A DNA stretch of 64,000 bases from Cellulosimicrobium marinum (GTDB lineage Bacteria; Actinomycetota; Actinomycetes; Actinomycetales; Cellulomonadaceae). The notes beneath the pieces were generated by a model. It did not search any database and was not told the origin of the DNA. It saw only the letters and a list, made by a program, of their open reading frames with translations. The stretch spans positions 51,914 to 115,913 of the forward strand of contig NZ_JAJBZH010000007.1 in the NCBI RefSeq assembly GCF_020551945.1. Reading direction: 5' to 3'. Every line of letters begins with the position of its first letter. The stretch's first letter is position 1. Positions 10,978-49,880 of this stretch are shown one piece after another. The translations under genes were made by a program, and so were the position numbers.

Positions 10978-13686
10978 CTACAGCGGCCCGACCGCGAGCA
11001 CGGTGATCACGGGGGCGCCCGCCTCGTCGCTCGCCGCGAGGTCGACGGTCGCGGTGACCGCCCAGTCGTGGTCCCCGGCCGGGTCGTCGAGCACCTGCCG
11101 GACCAGCCACGTGCCCGCGGGGACCACGCCGCCCGGGGCGTGGGCCGTCGTCGGGCCCTCGTGTCCCGGAGGTACCTCGCCACCGGGCTCCACGACCTGG
11201 AACAGCGCAGCGGCGCGCGCGCTCGGGCCGATGCCGACGGCGTCGTCGCCCTGCGCCTCGAAGAGCGGGTCGAGCGCGTCGCCCCACGCGTCGGCGTCCC
11301 AGCCGCTCGCGCCGTCGAGGGCGCCGAGCCCGCGGTAGTCCTCGCGCCCGGCGAGCTCGACCCGGCGGAACATCGCGTTGCGCACGAGCCGCCGGAACGC
11401 GCGCGGGTTGCCGGTGACCGGACGTGCGGGCGCCTCCTCGCCCGTCCCGGAGAGCGGGCCGTCGCCCACGAGGTCGTCCGCGTCGTCGTCCACCGGGCGG
11501 GACAGCCGCTCCCACTCGTCGAGCAGGGACGAGTCGGTGCCGCGCACGAGCTCGCCCAGCCACTCGACGATCTCGTGCACGTCCTCCGTGCGGTGCTCGT
11601 CGGGGACCACCTGGCGCAGCGCGCGGTAGGCGTCGGCGAGGTAGCGCAGCACGACGCCCTCGGTGCGCTCCAGCCCGTACACGGAGACGAACTCGGCGAA
11701 CGTCATCGCGCGCTCGACCATGTCCCGCACGACCGACTTCGGGGAGAGCTCGGCGTCGGCGACCCACGGGTTCGACCGCTTGTACATGACGAACGCGGGC
11801 TGCAGGAGCTCGTCCAGCGGCTTCGGCCAGGTGATCTCCTCGAGCAGCGCCATGCGCTCCTCGTACTCGTACCCCTCCGCCTTCATCGCCGCGACCGCCT
11901 CGCCCTTCGCGGCGTTCTGCTGCGCGTAGAGCACCTGGCGCGGGTCGTCGAGGGTCGCCTCGATGACGGAGACGACGTCGAGCGCGTGCGTCGGGCTCGC
12001 GACGTCGAGCAGGTCGAGGGCCGCGAGCGCGAACGGGGACAACGGCTGGTTGAGCGCGAAGTCGCGCGGCACGTCGACGGTGAGCCGCACGCTCGGCCGG
12101 TACCCGCCCGGCCGGGAGGCGTCGGGGACGCGCACGCGCTCGACGATGCCGGCGACGCGCAGGGAGCGGTAGACGCGGAAGGTCTGGCGCACGTGCTCGC
12201 GCCGCTGGGTGTCCGAGTCGTGGTTCGCGAGGAGCAGGTGCTGCATCGCGGCGACCGGGTCCTCGCCGCGCTGGGAGCGCGCGAGCACGTTGAGCACCAT
12301 CGCGTGGGTGACGCGGAAGTGGGACGTGAGCGGCTCGGGGTCGGCGTCGCGCAGGCGCTCGAACGTCGCGTCGGTCCAGTTGACCGACCCCTGGGGCGCC
12401 TTCTTGCGGACGATCTTCTTGAGCTTCTTCGGGTCGTCGCCGGCCTTGGCGAGCATCTTGCGGTTCTCGATCACGTGCTCGGGCGCCATGACGAGGACCT
12501 CGCCGACGGTGTCGTACCCGGCGCGTCCGGCGCGCCCGGCGATCTGGTGGAACTCGCGCGCCGTGAGGTGGCGCATGCGCTCTCCGTCGAACTTCACGAG
12601 GCTCGTGAGCAGCACCGTGCGGATCGGGACGTTGATGCCGACGCCGAGCGTGTCCGTGCCGCACACGACCTTGAGCAGACCGGACTGCGTGAGGCGCTCG
12701 ACGAGGCGCCGGTACTTGGGCAGCATGCCCGCGTGGTGCACGCCGACGCCGTGGCGCAGGAACTTGCTCAGGGTCTTGCCGAACCCGGTGCCGAACCGGA
12801 AGTCGCCGAGCTCGGCCGCGATGGCGTCCTTCTCGGCGCGCGACGCGACGTTCATCGACAGCAGCGACTGCGCGCGCTCGACCGCGTCCTTCTGCGTGAA
12901 GTGCACGACGTACACCGGCGCGCGGCGGGTCGTGACGAGCTCCTCGATGACCTCGGTGAGCGGCTCGACGACGTAGGAGAAGTGCAGGGGCACGGGGCGC
13001 TCGGCCGTCGTGACCTCGGCGACGGGGCGGCCGGTGCGCTCGGTGATCTCCTCGACGAAGCGGGTCGTGTCGCCGAGCGTCGCGGACATGAGGAGGAACT
13101 GGGTCCCGGTGAGCTCGAGGAGCGGCACCTGCCAGGCCCAGCCGCGCTGCGGGTCGGCGTAGAAGTGGAACTCGTCCATGACGACCTGGGAGATGGCGTG
13201 CTCGTCGGCGCCGGGCCGGTCGCCGTCGTCCGAGGAGCCGCGCCGGAGCGCCAGGTTCGCGAGGATCTCGGCGGTGCAGCAGATGATCGGCGCGTCGGGG
13301 TTCACGGCGGAGTCGCCGGTCATCATGCCGACGTTCTTCGACCCGAACGCCGCGACGAGCGCGAAGAACTTCTCGCTGACGAGCGCCTTGAGGGGCGCCG
13401 TGTAGTAGGTGCGGCCGCCGCGGCCCGAGCGGTACGACGCGAGCGCCGCGAACTGCGCGCCCATCGCGACGAGCGACTTCCCCGACCCGGTGGGGGTCGC
13501 GAGGATGACGTGCGACCCCGTGACGAGCTCGATGAGCGCCTCGCTCTGGTGGGGGTAGAGGTCGAGGCCCTGCTCGGTGGCCCACGTCGTGAACCCCTCG
13601 TACAGCGCGTCCGGGTCGGGGGCCTTGCCCGTCGGTGCGGGCACGTGCGCGAGGAGAGCCGGGGTGCGGCCGGTGGTCGTGGTCAC
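10978..13686 (-). CDS. DEAD/DEAH-box RNA helicase with DUF3516 domain
   Basis: ATP-dependent Ski2-like helicase of 902 residues, predicted to act on RNA. Walker A is ATPTGSGKS near residue 63, Walker B/motif II is VMDEFHFY, motif III is LMSATLG, and the C-terminal helicase lobe has GVHHAGMLPKYRR, TDTLGVGINVP and HQIAGRAGRAGYD. The C-terminal third carries the DUF3516 region of actinobacterial homologues. The start is a GTG at 13686 (MTTTTGRTPALL). Divergent from the GH92 gene across a 243-bp regulatory region. Confidence 0.9.
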   Translation of the reverse strand: MTTTTGRTPALLAHVPAPTGKAPDPDALYEGFTTWATEQGLDLYPHQSEALIELVTGSHVILATPTGSGKSLVAMGAQFAALASYRSGRGGRTYYTAPLKALVSEKFFALVAAFGSKNVGMMTGDSAVNPDAPIICCTAEILANLALRRGSSDDGDRPGADEHAISQVVMDEFHFYADPQRGWAWQVPLLELTGTQFLLMSATLGDTTRFVEEITERTGRPVAEVTTAERPVPLHFSYVVEPLTEVIEELVTTRRAPVYVVHFTQKDAVERAQSLLSMNVASRAEKDAIAAELGDFRFGTGFGKTLSKFLRHGVGVHHAGMLPKYRRLVERLTQSGLLKVVCGTDTLGVGINVPIRTVLLTSLVKFDGERMRHLTAREFHQIAGRAGRAGYDTVGEVLVMAPEHVIENRKMLAKAGDDPKKLKKIVRKKAPQGSVNWTDATFERLRDADPEPLTSHFRVTHAMVLNVLARSQRGEDPVAAMQHLLLANHDSDTQRREHVRQTFRVYRSLRVAGIVERVRVPDASRPGGYRPSVRLTVDVPRDFALNQPLSPFALAALDLLDVASPTHALDVVSVIEATLDDPRQVLYAQQNAAKGEAVAAMKAEGYEYEERMALLEEITWPKPLDELLQPAFVMYKRSNPWVADAELSPKSVVRDMVERAMTFAEFVSVYGLERTEGVVLRYLADAYRALRQVVPDEHRTEDVHEIVEWLGELVRGTDSSLLDEWERLSRPVDDDADDLVGDGPLSGTGEEAPARPVTGNPRAFRRLVRNAMFRRVELAGREDYRGLGALDGASGWDADAWGDALDPLFEAQGDDAVGIGPSARAAALFQVVEPGGEVPPGHEGPTTAHAPGGVVPAGTWLVRQVLDDPAGDHDWAVTATVDLAASDEAGAPVITVLAVGPL

Positions 13687-43475: not shown

Positions 43476-44882
43476 ATGGCATCCCACTACGACGTCGTCG
43501 TCCTCGGTGCAGGCCCCGGTGGTTACGTGGCCGCGATCCGTGCAGCCCAGCTGGGCCTGCAGGTCGCGGTCGTGGAGGAGAAGTACTGGGGTGGGGTGTG
43601 CCTCAACGTGGGCTGCATCCCGTCCAAGGCGCTCCTGCGCAACGCCGAGCTCGCGCACCTCTTCACGCACGACGCGAAGACCTTCGGCATGTCCGGCGAG
43701 GTGACCTTCGACTTCGGCGCGGCGTTCGACCGCTCGCGCACCGTCGCCGAGGGGCGCGTCAAGGGCGTGCACTTCCTCATGAAGAAGAACAAGATCACCG
43801 AGTACGACGGCCGCGGCACGTTCCGCGACGCGAACACGCTCGACGTGAAGCTCGCCGACGGCTCGACGGACCAGGTCACGTTCGACAACGTCATCATCGC
43901 GACCGGCTCGAAGGTGCGCCTGCTCCCGGGCGTCGAGCTGTCCGAGAACGTCGTCACGTACGAGAAGCAGATCCTCACGCGCGAGCTGCCGAAGTCCATC
44001 GCCATCGTCGGCGCCGGCGCCATCGGCATGGAGTTCGGCTACGTCCTCAAGAACTACGGCGTGGACGTCACCATCATCGAGTTCCTCGACCGCGCCCTGC
44101 CCAACGAGGACGCCGACGTCTCCAAGGAGATCGCCAAGCAGTACAAGAAGCTCGGCGTGAAGCTGCTGACGTCGACGGCGGTCCAGACGGTCACCGACAA
44201 CGGCACCGACGGCGTCAAGGTCACCTACAAGGGCGTCAAGGACGACAAGCCGGACGAGCTCGTCGTCGACAAGGTCCTCATGGCCGTCGGCTTCGCCCCC
44301 AACGTCGAAGGCTTCGGCCTCGAGAACACCGGCGTCCAGCTCACCGAGCGCGGCGCCATCGCCATCGACGACGTCATGCGCACCAACGTCGACCACATCT
44401 ACGCCATCGGCGACGTCACCGCCAAGCTCATGCTCGCCCACGTCGCCGAAGCACAGGGCGTCGTCGCCGCCGAGACCATCGGCGGCGCCGAGACCCTCAC
44501 CCTCGGCGACTACCGCATGATGCCCCGCGCCACCTTCTGCCAGCCGCAGGTCGCCAGCTTCGGCCTCACCGAGCAGCAGGCCAAGGACGAGGGCTACGAG
44601 GTCAAGGTCGCCACCTTCCCCTTCATGGCCAACGGCAAGGCCCACGGCCTCGGCGACCCCGTCGGATTCGTCAAGCTCATCTCCGACGAGACCTACGGCG
44701 AGCTCCTCGGCGGCCACCTCATCGGCCCCGACGTCTCAGAGATGCTGCCCGAGCTCACCCTCGCGCAGAAGTGGGACCTCACCGTCAACGAGCTCTCGCG
44801 CAACGTGCACACGCACCCGACGCTGTCCGAGGCCGTCCAGGAGTCCATCCACGGCCTCGCGGGGCACATGATCAACTTCTAG
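43476..44882 (+). CDS. lpdA: Dihydrolipoyl dehydrogenase
   Basis: FAD-dependent E3 component of 2-oxoacid dehydrogenase and glycine cleavage complexes, reoxidising dihydrolipoyl groups with NAD+. 468 residues. FAD site [20 protein letters not shown]; redox disulfide [19 protein letters not shown] site [28 protein letters not shown]-terminal interface with [20 protein letters not shown], holding the catalytic His-Glu pair. The start is leaderless. A strong terminator follows, and the accessory island begins directly after it. Confidence 0.97.
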
Positions 44883-45073: not shown

Positions 45074-45913
45074 GTGAGCGCCGTGGTCGTGACGTTCGAA
45101 AGGTTGCGGGACGCGGAAGCGGCCGTGCCCGCCTGCGCCGGGTACAGCACAACGGCTGGGGTGGTTGACGCGACGTTAAGGGCAGTCTTCGGCGCGGACG
45201 TCGCGGGGACGTTGCGCGCGGTCAACCAGCCGCTGGAGACGGTGGCGGCAGCCAAGGCGATGAGGGCCGACATCGGCGGGCTCGAATGCACGGTCTACGC
45301 CGACCCCCAGGGCGTGAATGTGCTCACCCCTGGCACTCGCGCGGAGCGCCACCTCCGTGCCCATGCGCGGCCTGGGAGCGAGGTTCGCGCTGATCGGCGG
45401 GGCGATACCGCGTATGCCATGGTCGGCTATGCCTGGGACGATCTTGCTGAGCTCGTGGACGTCGTCGACGCCGAAGCGCTGGCCGACGCAGTTGCGGGAC
45501 GGACGCCGCGTCGAGCCCTGATCACCTCGGCTGCTGACCGCCGCGCGATCGAGGAGCGTGCCGTGGGCGTGGCGACGGAGCATTTTGAGGCGATCGGATA
45601 TCAGGTGGCGAACGTCGGGGCGACGGCGTCGTACGACCTCGACTGCCGTCGCGGTGACGAGCACTTGTACGTCGAGGTGAAGGGGACCACGACCGGCGGG
45701 GAAGCCGTCATCCTCACGAGGAACGAGGTGGAGCTGCACCGCGCGACGTACCCGCGCAACGCACTGGCGCTCGTGCGACGCATCCGCCTCGATCGGTCGT
45801 GCGAACCGCCCGCAGCGACGGACGGCGAGCTGCTCCTCACGCAACCGTGGCAGATCGACGACGAGTCCCTGACCGCACTGAGCTACCGATTCGCCACGGG
45901 CGTCGACGGCTGA
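45074..45913 (+). CDS. DUF3883 domain-containing protein
   Basis: 279-residue protein. The N-terminal 150 residues match no family I recognise. The C-terminal part (about 155-245) is DUF3883: DRRAIEERAVGVATEHFEAI, then ASYDLDCRRGDEHLYVEVKG, and VILTRNEVELHRATYPRNA. The pattern D...EVKG recalls restriction-endonuclease-like folds, and DUF3883 occurs in defence and DNA-processing proteins. GTG start at 45074. Codon use and GC are less extreme than in flanking genes (for example ATTTTG and GGATAT near 45590), indicating acquisition. Its partner may be the DUF262 gene downstream on the other strand. Confidence 0.72.
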   Translation: MSAVVVTFERLRDAEAAVPACAGYSTTAGVVDATLRAVFGADVAGTLRAVNQPLETVAAAKAMRADIGGLECTVYADPQGVNVLTPGTRAERHLRAHARPGSEVRADRRGDTAYAMVGYAWDDLAELVDVVDAEALADAVAGRTPRRALITSAADRRAIEERAVGVATEHFEAIGYQVANVGATASYDLDCRRGDEHLYVEVKGTTTGGEAVILTRNEVELHRATYPRNALALVRRIRLDRSCEPPAATDGELLLTQPWQIDDESLTALSYRFATGVDG

Positions 45914-46308: not shown

Positions 46309-48129
46309 TTAGAGCGCCCGGTAGTAGGCGCGGATCGACTGCGCCATCAGCATGCGGCGCTCGGCGAGGAACTCCTGGTAGTTGCCCGCGGTGACCTCAC
46401 CGAGTTTCGCGGGCACGGCGTTCTCCACGAGGTTCCGGGCGAGGTCATGGGCGTCGGTGATCTCCCCGAGCGTCAGGATGCTGCTCGTGATCTGACCGTC
46501 CATCTCGGCCATGTAGACGGCCGGAGGCTTGTTGCTGATGGAGATGTTGATCGAGGTCTCGGTGAGCGCAAAGTTGGCGACCTGGTTGTAGTCGCCGCGG
46601 TCGGGGAAGCCGTTCTTCTGAAGGTAGTCCTTCGGCACGATGTGGTGGATGTCGCCCGACTGCTGGTGCATGGCGGCCACCGTGACGCCCTTGGAGAGGA
46701 ACCCGCGGGCGCGGGCCGCGACCTGGGATGCGAGGAACGTCTGGAAGTAGGGGCTCGCCGTGCTGGTGGTCATTAGGTTCTGCGGGAGCCGCGCGTTCCA
46801 GTAGGCGTCCGACAGCTCGGACTCCTCGATCTGCTTCAGGTAGTTCTCCGCCCCCTGCTCGCCGATACGGCGGATGTCCTGCTCCCAGGTGGACTCGAAG
46901 CTTCCCGAGTGGCGTGAGGTGAGCATCGACATGACGAACCACCGCTTGACGATCCGCTTGCAGTCACCCTCTGACATGTCCCCGTCCTGCCGGAGACGTA
47001 GGTAGAGGGCGTATGCGAAGTTGAGGGCGTTCTTCGAGCCCACCATGCCCGAGGCGATGAAGCCAGCGGACTTGATGAGCAGGAGGAAGTTCTCAAACGG
47101 GTACTTGCTGACGATGTCCAGCAGGGCCCGCTCGAGCTTGTCGTAGGCCACGGGAATGCGTGCCTCGTCGACGGTCCTGGTTTCGGGATCACGTCCCGAC
47201 AGCTCGCTGACAATGCTCGAGGCCTTGCCGCGATTGAATCCGAGGAGGCCGGCGACGCGGATCAGGTCGCCGTACGCCGGGTCGTAGAGGTCCTCCGAGT
47301 CGTCCTTGAGCCACGAGATCTTCTGCAGAAACGGCGTGGCGGCGAACTCGGTGTCGTTGTCCCGGATGTCGGCGTAGGCATGGGGCGCGACGGCGAGGTG
47401 GCAGAAGTAGTCGATGAGCTTGCGAAGGTTCCTTCCTCGGTCGCCGTAGGTGGCGATCTTGCTCATGGCGAAGTCGGCGCTGCTCAGGGGCACGCCCTTG
47501 GAGTTGATGCGGATGAAGATCTCCGACACGGTCTCGACGTCGAGGTCGTCTGCGAGGCCGATAATGCCGATCTGGGCGTTCTTGATCCCCTCGAGGCGTG
47601 CGAGGTTGCTCTCGAAGACCTCGCCGTCGACGCCGGGGTTGCGTTCGAGATACCGGCGGGCGAAGGACAGTGGAGAGGCCGAGTTGAAGTACTCGCTGAT
47701 GTCCGCGATCCACTGCGGATTCTTGCGGATCACCGGGGTCGCCGTGGCGAACTCCTCGGAGATCGGGTTGAACGCGATGACTATGCGGACCGATTGGTAC
47801 CGCTTGTTCACCACCGGCAGCCCGGCAACCGCGGCTCGCAGCGCCGTGATCCGCTGCTGACCATCGATCAGGATCTGCTGGTGCGCGGCGATCTGACCGC
47901 CCTTCAGCTTCGCGCCGACCGACTGCCACGTGATCAGGTATCCGACGGGGTAGCCCTTGTAGAGGGAGTCCATGAGGTCGCGGACCTTGATGCTGTCCCA
48001 GACGAACGGACGCTGGAGTTCGGGGATCGCGATTTTGTCGCCCTTGACGTCAGCCAGCAGTTGCGTCACTGCCGACTGCGTCACCTGGTACTTCGCCACG
48101 CCTACCCCCATAATCCGACGACGAGTCAT
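46309..48129 (-). CDS. DUF262/HNH (GmrSD-like) protein
   Basis: 606-residue protein with the GmrS-like DUF262 domain at about 10-260: KIAIPELQRPFVWDSIKVRD, YPVGYLITWQ and ILIDGQQRITALRA (the DGQQR nucleotide-hydrolysis motif). FIRINSKGVPLSSADF follows. The C-terminus (about 500-570) has SGDIHHIVPKDYLQKNG and NQVANFALTETSIN, the HNH/DUF1524-type nuclease site of GmrD. Single-chain proteins of this type include Type IV restriction enzymes acting on modified phage DNA; activity here is inference. Start candidates are ATG 48129, ATG 48111 and GTG 48102 (VAKYQVTQS). GC is clearly lower than in neighbours. Confidence 0.82.
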   Translation of the reverse strand: MTRRRIMGVGVAKYQVTQSAVTQLLADVKGDKIAIPELQRPFVWDSIKVRDLMDSLYKGYPVGYLITWQSVGAKLKGGQIAAHQQILIDGQQRITALRAAVAGLPVVNKRYQSVRIVIAFNPISEEFATATPVIRKNPQWIADISEYFNSASPLSFARRYLERNPGVDGEVFESNLARLEGIKNAQIGIIGLADDLDVETVSEIFIRINSKGVPLSSADFAMSKIATYGDRGRNLRKLIDYFCHLAVAPHAYADIRDNDTEFAATPFLQKISWLKDDSEDLYDPAYGDLIRVAGLLGFNRGKASSIVSELSGRDPETRTVDEARIPVAYDKLERALLDIVSKYPFENFLLLIKSAGFIASGMVGSKNALNFAYALYLRLRQDGDMSEGDCKRIVKRWFVMSMLTSRHSGSFESTWEQDIRRIGEQGAENYLKQIEESELSDAYWNARLPQNLMTTSTASPYFQTFLASQVAARARGFLSKGVTVAAMHQQSGDIHHIVPKDYLQKNGFPDRGDYNQVANFALTETSINISISNKPPAVYMAEMDGQITSSILTLGEITDAHDLARNLVENAVPAKLGEVTAGNYQEFLAERRMLMAQSIRAYYRAL

Positions 48130-48267
48130 GGCGAGGTTACGCCCACCGACCTTGCCGGGGTAGGCCGAGAGACCAAGTCAAGTCGCACATCGTTGCGGAC
48201 CGGTAGCTCGAGCAATCGAAAGCCAATCGTGCTTGCATGACCTGGAGGTCGACGCGAGGGAGGGCGC

Positions 48268-48440
48268 GTGCTCCGCACAGTCGACACGTCGTACGGTGCG
48301 CCGGCTCTGGACCGCCTGCAGTCGGCGATGTCGGAGTTGAAGCAGCACTACCCGATGAGGCAGGTCGTGGTGGTGACACCCACGCACCTGGCGGGTACGG
48401 TCGCCCGCCGCCACCTCGCACGCCATGGCATCGACCGCCC
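48268..48440 (+). pseudogene. N-terminal fragment of a PD-(D/E)XK nuclease/helicase-type protein
   Basis: From GTG 48268 (with GAGGGAGGGCGC upstream) the frame encodes MLRTVDTSYGAPALDRLQSA and QVVVVTPTHLAGTVARRHLA, resembling the first ~55 residues of actinobacterial AddB-like PD-(D/E)XK nuclease-superfamily proteins (GAPAL and VVVP...ARR pattern). After about 48440 the sequence turns into low-complexity shadow of the opposite-strand fragment. Only the start of the gene survives, so it is a truncated remnant. Confidence 0.5.
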
Positions 48441-48445
48441 CGGCG

Positions 48446-48573
48446 CCGACCCTGCGACGTCCGCGCGGGGCGATCGCTCGTCCCGGCCGGTCCGAGGTCG
48501 GGTTCCGCACCTGGTCCAGGACGTAGTCGAGGTCGGCGAACTCGCGCTTCCGCCCGACGAAGCCGGTCACCAT
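48446..48573 (-). pseudogene. N-terminal fragment of an AAA/STAND-like ATPase
   Basis: From ATG 48573, with GGAAGGTAGCG upstream, the frame reads MVTGFVGRKREFADLDYVLD and later RAIAPRGRRRVG, the start of ATPases with an FVGRxxE box and a GRRRVGKS Walker A. The Walker lysine and everything after it are missing: the frame continues GAGAVDAMACEVAAG, which is shadow of the facing fragment. A junction at about 48440-48450 therefore joins two N-terminal fragments. An inverted-repeat operator lies just upstream. Confidence 0.55.
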
Positions 48574-48584
48574 CGCTACCTTCC

Positions 48585-48613
48585 ATGTAGGTCGCACCAA
48601 ATGTTACCTACAT
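48585..48613. promoter_or_regulatory. Inverted repeat ATGTAGGT-N13-ACCTACAT upstream of the ATPase fragment
   Basis: Perfect 8-bp arms at 48585-48592 and 48606-48613, in an AT-richer stretch that also holds TAACAT and TATCAT on the minus strand. It begins 12 bp upstream of the ATPase-fragment start, so it looks like a repressor site over its promoter, left behind after the gene was truncated. Confidence 0.6.
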
Positions 48614-48839
48614 CGGATGATACGTACATCGTGCCACGTGGTTCGGTGTCCAGCGAGCACCCGCCGCAGAGCCGTACGGAAACGGCGTGGCGGGCGGCCT
48701 GACGTGGCGACCGGACGAGCGGCGCTGGACCGACTGACGACCGTCCGTACCCGATGGCGCCCCCTACCGACGCAGGGTGCGCCGCGCCGTCGGGCAGGGA
48801 GAGGATGGGCGGGACGTCACCGACCCGAGGAGGAGACCC

Positions 48840-49880
48840 ATGCCGCTGCCTGCCACGCCGACGCGCGAGTTCGTGACCGGCCTGCCGAAGGCCGAGCTGC
48901 ACGTGCACCTGGAGGGCACGTTGGAGCCGGAGCTGAAGCTGCGCCTCGCGGAGCGCAACGGGGTCGACATCGGCCAGTCGACGGTGGAGGAGGTGCGTGC
49001 GACGTACGCGTTCGACTCGCTCGCGAGCTTCCTGGCCGTGTACTACCCGGCGATGGAGGTGCTGCGGACCGCGGACGACTTCTACGAGCTCGCCGACGCG
49101 TACCTGGCGCGCGCGGCGGCGGACGGCGTGAAGCACGTGGAGATGTTCTTCGACCCGCAGGCGCACACGTCGCGCGGGGTGCCGTTCGAGGAGGTCGTGA
49201 CCGGGTACCACCGCGCGGCCGCGGAGGCGCCCGCGAAGCATGGCGTGGACGCGCACCTCGTCCTGTGCTTCCTGCGCGACATGTCGGCCGAGAGCGCGGC
49301 GGAGACGCTCGAGGCGTCGGTGCCGTTCCGGGACAGGATCCTCGGCGTGGGGCTCGACTCGGACGAGCGCGGCAACCCGCCGGAGAAGTTCGCCGCGGTG
49401 TTCGCGCGGGCGCGCGAGCTCGGCTACCGCCTGACGATGCACTGCGACATCGACCAGGAGGGCAGCATCGACAACATCCGCACGGTGCTCGACGAGATCG
49501 GCGTGGACCGCGTGGACCACGGCACGAACGTCGTGGAGGACCCGGCGCTCGTCGAGGTCGTGCGCGAGCGGGGCCTCGGGCTCACGTGCTGCCCGGTCTC
49601 CAACTCGTTCGTCACCGACGACATGAAGGCCGCCGAGATCGCGGGCCTGCTGCGCGACGGCGTGCGCGTCACGGTGAACTCCGACGACCCGGCGTACTTC
49701 GGCGGGTACGTGGTGGACAACTACGTGGCGCTCGCCGAGGCGGCGGACCTCACGTCGGCTGAGGTCGTGCAGCTCGCGCGCAACTCGTTCGAGGCGTCGT
49801 GGCTGGGGTCCGCGCAGCGCGCCGCGTACCTCGCGGAGGTCGACGGGTACGTCGCGGCGTTCGAGGCGCGCCCGGCCTGA
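48840..49880 (+). CDS. Adenine/adenosine deaminase family protein with altered catalytic motif
   Basis: 346-residue amidohydrolase of the ADA superfamily, most like adenine deaminases. The first metal site is LPKAELHVHLEGTLEPEL, then YAFDSLASFLAVYY, FFDPQAHTSRGVPFEEV and the adenine-deaminase hallmark VNSDDPAYFGGYV; IDRVDHG-type DRVDHGTNVVEDP is present. The usual HAGE proton-donor motif is replaced by HCDIDQ (His201-Gln206), so the catalytic glutamate is absent and specificity may differ. GAGGAGGAG precedes the ATG. Alone on the strand between the accessory island and murA. Confidence 0.82.
   Translation: MPLPATPTREFVTGLPKAELHVHLEGTLEPELKLRLAERNGVDIGQSTVEEVRATYAFDSLASFLAVYYPAMEVLRTADDFYELADAYLARAAADGVKHVEMFFDPQAHTSRGVPFEEVVTGYHRAAAEAPAKHGVDAHLVLCFLRDMSAESAAETLEASVPFRDRILGVGLDSDERGNPPEKFAAVFARARELGYRLTMHCDIDQEGSIDNIRTVLDEIGVDRVDHGTNVVEDPALVEVVRERGLGLTCCPVSNSFVTDDMKAAEIAGLLRDGVRVTVNSDDPAYFGGYVVDNYVALAEAADLTSAEVVQLARNSFEASWLGSAQRAAYLAEVDGYVAAFEARPA

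Follow-up and report, generated by a model that had tools for sequence, protein, structure and literature searches.

Two short reading frames that face each other in the genome of Cellulosimicrobium marinum are very probably the two halves of a deletion scar, in which the stumps of two genes were joined by illegitimate recombination. The window, by which we mean the whole stretch of DNA analysed, covers 64,000 nt of contig NZ_JAJBZH010000007.1 (positions 51914-115913; G000:C12) in a 3.83 Mb draft genome of 14 contigs. What is directly observed is a homology on each side of a sharp join, the absence of both gene bodies from the genome, a convergent arrangement of the two intact genes in G174, a genome of another genus, and a variable interval between lpd and add around the join. 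From these we infer that the loss was a single event, and also its mechanism, size and cargo. The deletion is an ordinary kind of event. It is well resolved here, a fossil of island loss for which one can still see the flanks, the two stumps and, in a relative, the arrangement without the deletion, and annotators should treat the two short frames as stumps, not as genes. The features of the interval, in positions of the window, are:

43476-44882, plus strand: lpd, dihydrolipoamide dehydrogenase, the left edge of the interval; present in 17/17 congeneric genomes
45074-45913, plus strand: NO VEIN C-terminal (NOV_C) domain protein (PF13020, E 1.2e-07)
46309-48129, minus strand: GmrSD-like protein, apparently intact (PF03235, E 3.8e-27; PADLOC HEC-05, E 4.4e-29)
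48228-48267, plus strand: DNA just ahead of the nuclease start, also conserved in G174; the blastn match begins at 48228
48268-48440, plus strand: 5' stump of an AddB-like PD-(D/E)XK nuclease gene, 58 codons, GTG start at 48268; 91.6% DNA identity to the intact gene of G174
48441-48444, no strand: junction, four bases that belong to neither side in the comparison with G174 and G117 (identity bins)
48445-48597, minus strand: 5' stump of an ATPase/DUF234 gene, 51 codons, start at ATG 48573 or GTG 48597; 84-88% DNA identity to four intact genes
48585-48613, no strand: perfect inverted repeat ATGTAGGT-N13-ACCTACAT, overlapping the ATPase start; present in all four close intact orthologues
48840-49880, plus strand: add, adenosine deaminase, the right edge of the interval; beside lpd in 17/17 congeneric genomes

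We take the two edge genes to be lpd and add from their sequence, not from a family scan.

The sequence-only reading had proposed that a plus-strand nuclease-like start and a minus-strand ATPase start, the latter cut just before the Walker lysine, meet at about 48440-48450, and the comparison with intact genes bears this out in each part. The nuclease stump and its upstream region match the intact PD-(D/E)XK nuclease gene of G174 over 48228-48440 (91.6% DNA identity, E 1.8e-82, blastn), and the ATPase stump matches the intact genes of G116, G117, G166 and G174 from 48445 to 48626-48630 at 84-88% DNA identity (E 5.5e-51 to 7.7e-62). In bins of 15 nt, the identity of the nuclease side to G174 runs at 12-15/15 up to 48432, is 11 in the junction bin, and then drops to 1-6/15; coming from the other direction, the identity of the ATPase side to G117 runs at 10-15/15 down to 48448 and then drops to 1-8/15. 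The loss of homology at 48440/48445 is thus sharp from both sides, with identity at chance level beyond. The four bases between, 48441-48444, are identical to those at the matching place of a further nuclease gene, in G160, and may themselves be nuclease sequence, in which case the junction would lie at 48444/48445.

What is left of each gene is only its beginning. The ATPase stump ends at RGRRRVG, and the next codon in the relatives is the Walker A lysine; a complete Walker A motif, the ATPase core and DUF234 are all missing from the stump, which has no Pfam match above cut-off. The nuclease stump retains 58 of 1033 codons and lacks the C-terminal PD-(D/E)XK domain. The bodies are not elsewhere in the source genome, where full-length queries for the two genes return the stumps only, each in a single copy. 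On the same ground, an inversion or a relocation of the gene bodies by translocation is disfavoured.

The intact relatives show what the two genes were. Counted from the matching GTG, the G174 nuclease gene has 1033 codons, and it encodes a PDDEXK_1 domain (E 1.6e-24); the stump protein is 85% identical to it over residues 4-58. An AddA-like gene lies directly downstream of the nuclease in 4/4 intact loci, the copy in G174 having UvrD-helicase and PDDEXK_1 domains, and we take such a pair of AddB-like nuclease and AddA-like helicase to belong to the AddAB/AdnAB type of helicase-nucleases. Compared with this pair, the window lacks both the helicase partner (a search for an AddA-like gene in the window gave no match) and the nuclease domain. 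The intact ATPase genes of G116, G117, G166 and G174 have about 476 codons. The G117 protein, to which the 51-residue stump protein is 82% identical, has both AAA_14 (E 2.8e-07) and C-terminal DUF234 (PF03008, E 1.4e-10) above the Pfam cut-off and matches the PADLOC candidate PDC-S27 (E 1.2e-24); the stump stops ahead of both regions.

Full-length homologues that end naturally at this point would have been at odds with a truncation, and they were not found. A query with 43 residues of the ATPase stump gave 54 matches in 47 of the 221 genomes of the family, and 52 of these sit in open frames of at least 350 codons; the two exceptions are the window itself (141 codons) and a match starting 451 bases from a contig end (195 codons). 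The full-length nuclease query gave seven matches in the 221 genomes at a cut-off of E 1e-15. Four are near full length (G174, G146, G045 and G060, 59-100% identity), two are N-terminal remnants (the window and G160), and the seventh, in G198, is a distant relative at 28% identity. Weak matches in G190 and G076 (E 0.005 and 0.008) were dropped, as the full-length query missed both at E 1e-15.

The expectation that full-length homologues would occur as convergent neighbours is realized in one genome. In G174, the nuclease and the ATPase are both intact, convergent and on one contig, the matching breakpoints being 52.9 kb apart, and the nuclease gene begins about 200 bp past lpd. Together with the sharp join and the missing bodies, this upholds the proposal that a deletion removed the 3' parts of two convergent genes. 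The history is limited in that the expected convergent pair occurs in G174 alone, which is from another genus; within the species itself, neither an intermediate nor an undeleted strain turned up. The direct ancestor is not seen, because the nuclease is present in 0/16 other congeneric genomes, whether intact or partial.

The ancestor would have had the order lpd, AddB-like nuclease on the plus strand as the first gene of an AddB/AddA-like pair, cargo, ATPase/DUF234 on the minus strand, and add. One deletion, reaching from about 58 codons into the nuclease to about 51 codons into the ATPase, would then have taken all the intervening DNA and brought the two 5' ends together, head to head. Because homology or filler at the join amounts to a few bases at the most, an illegitimate route such as end joining is likely, and end joining in particular would be possible since the source genome encodes Ku (E 1.9e-53). 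A join mediated by repeats in the remaining interval was rejected, as no repeat pair there spans both breakpoints; the deleted DNA itself is not visible.

The same product could have come from a history in two steps, in which an incoming island with an already shortened nuclease replaced the body of a resident ATPase downstream of lpd. In support of such a history, the ATPase can sit near lpd without a nuclease, as it does in G116, G117 and G166, and in G160 just the N-terminal part of the nuclease remains and the 40 kb examined has no ATPase match, so truncation of the nuclease does occur alone. However, no more than four unassigned bases lie between the two sides of the join, so that two independent breakpoints would have had to fall at one point; moreover, G174 has a nuclease-bearing island beside an intact ATPase. 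We consider two independent truncations quite unlikely.

The single deletion thus being preferred, the next question is how much was lost. The minimum is the bodies of both genes. The AddA-like partner was very probably lost as well, since it adjoins the nuclease in every intact locus. The sequence-only reading went further and held that the island once contained a larger system; this stands only for the nuclease gene and, as a probability, for the AddA-like gene. To judge from gene neighbourhoods, the nuclease and the ATPase belong to different modules rather than to one system, because the other three intact nuclease loci have no ATPase within the 20 kb examined and the ATPase genes of G116, G117 and G166 have no nuclease.

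The DNA between the two genes in G174 is an example of possible cargo and no proof of what the ancestor of the window carried. It includes the AddA-like gene, genes labelled ZacA, ZacB and ZacC, a type-2-like BREX set (PglW, PglX, BrxC/PglY, PglZ, BrxD, BrxHI), two transposase genes and an integrase-like fragment (phrog_1, E 1e-14). BREX type 2 is not found at the locus in the window: PglW, PglX, BrxD and BrxHI were sought across the window and no set was present, the sole BREX-type match being a BrxHI-like stretch at 12523-13560, with 27% identity and far from the locus. In G174, moreover, a copy of the lpd 3' end that includes the hairpin lies about 46 kb away beside the integrase-like fragment (131 columns, 88%; L029:7235-7365 and L031:13451-13579). 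By its placement, the copy suggests use of the lpd 3' end as an attachment or integration site in that related genus.

If the stumps are leftovers of a deletion, they may be expected to decay. Counting codons that are changed in the window only, the ATPase stump has six nonsynonymous and one synonymous change and the nuclease stump has seven and one, or 13 versus 2 for both together. The nonsynonymous to synonymous counts for the unique codons of the intact orthologues are 9 to 16 for the ATPase (G117, G166, G174) and 35 to 35 for the nuclease (G174, G146, G060, G045), in total 44 to 51. One-sided Fisher tests gave p 0.027 for the ATPase, 0.046 for the nuclease and 0.003 jointly, on small counts and differing branch lengths; the synonymous counts of the comparators are inflated because their branches are longer. 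G160 served as a comparator for the nuclease codons, but was kept off the intact side of the test because its nuclease is itself truncated. The changes in the ATPase stump include a leucine-to-proline just ahead of Walker A, and the stump has 88.9% similarity to G117, compared with 94.9% for lpd. By these signs, the stumps are non-functional and drifting, the excess of amino-acid change being as expected of dead sequence.

One may still ask whether the remaining DNA has a function, either as a small plus-strand protein of 144 codons (48268-48702) or as an orphan regulatory region with a regulator-bound inverted repeat. Both short reading frames are indeed open, and the repeat is intact and shared by all the close orthologues. 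Yet the plus-strand frame matches no Pfam or NCBIfam family at E 1, the junction has no Rfam match at E 0.1 that would indicate an RNA gene, no promoter-like site was found in a scan for the sigma-70 consensus only, and the excess of nonsynonymous change argues against a function for either. Taken together, functional stumps are highly improbable.

The inverted repeat ATGTAGGT-N13-ACCTACAT deserves some attention of its own. It occurs in 4/4 close intact ATPase orthologues, where its arms differ from those in the window by one base at most; 15 more distant ATPase loci lack it at that place, and one of them has an unrelated match elsewhere. The idea that it is shared with other promoters of the genome was rejected, as it is a single site in the source genome at up to two mismatches. 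As a guess, it could be a self-regulating operator, now orphaned by the loss of the ATPase.

The surroundings of the scar bear on the soundness of the assembly. The source is a draft in 14 contigs and we worked with the assembly sequence alone, so the contig could in principle join unrelated pieces at 48440-48445. Against such a chimera, the left flank (lpd) and the right flank (add, murA) adjoin each other in congeneric genomes, the source genome has one copy of each stump, and the join falls within a contig of 170 kb. Because lpd and add flank the interval in 17/17 congeneric genomes, a chimeric assembly is extremely improbable, and we return to the deletion as the origin of the join.

In a separate place, the same nuclease gene has been cut down again. 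G160 holds a second, separate N-terminal remnant of it (L036:7440-7665), and 3.8 kb after this stump lies a fragment of a DUF6361 gene (L036:11473-11858). The DUF6361 gene of G174 is also downstream of the nuclease, with the PADLOC label ZacA. Since the nuclease stump followed by the DUF6361 fragment mirrors the order in G174, the same kind of island has apparently been eroded separately in G160. One could go further and see the lpd end as a recurrent, cross-genus landing site for large defence islands, which are repeatedly lost by deletions starting in their AddB-like first gene and leave 5' stumps, such as those in the window and in G160, as fossils. This is a long shot. If it were true, the kept 5' ends and the ATPase inverted repeat could still help to anchor the next island, through regulation or recombination.

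A more modest statement can be made about the interval itself: lpd-add is a variable, partly defence-bearing locus in this genus. Its size in the 17 congeneric genomes ranges from 676 to 9741 bp and its content varies; in the window it holds the NOV_C protein, the GmrSD-like protein and the two stumps. The ATPase of G116 and G117 is convergent with lpd, about 275 bp after it. In G166, which belongs to the same family as the genus of the window, the ATPase is again downstream of lpd and convergent, coming after a small pair that includes a ribbon-helix-helix protein. In Pseudomonas aeruginosa, variable defence loci between conserved core genes have been described as core defence hotspots (PMC10250203). 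The lpd-add interval resembles these hotspots in its conserved flanks, its variable content and the presence, here and there, of defence genes (AbiE in G122 and, shortened, in G125; BREX in G174), but differs in that much of the content in this genus is non-defence, such as an LPMO, a dehydrogenase and a two-component system. The titles and abstract openings returned by a literature search held nothing specific to this locus, which does not prove that such work is absent.

Several minor observations concern the other contents of the interval. The NOV_C protein at 45074-45913 shares the interval with the GmrSD-like gene, and its N-terminal part matches no Pfam family. A frame of 1248 codons in the interval of G121 (L063:1882-5628) has no Pfam or PADLOC match at E 0.001. 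The interval of G122 holds an AbiEi/AbiEii pair; in G125, AbiEi is shortened and a small AbiEii-like piece accompanies it (L068:1703-2844), apparently also through erosion.
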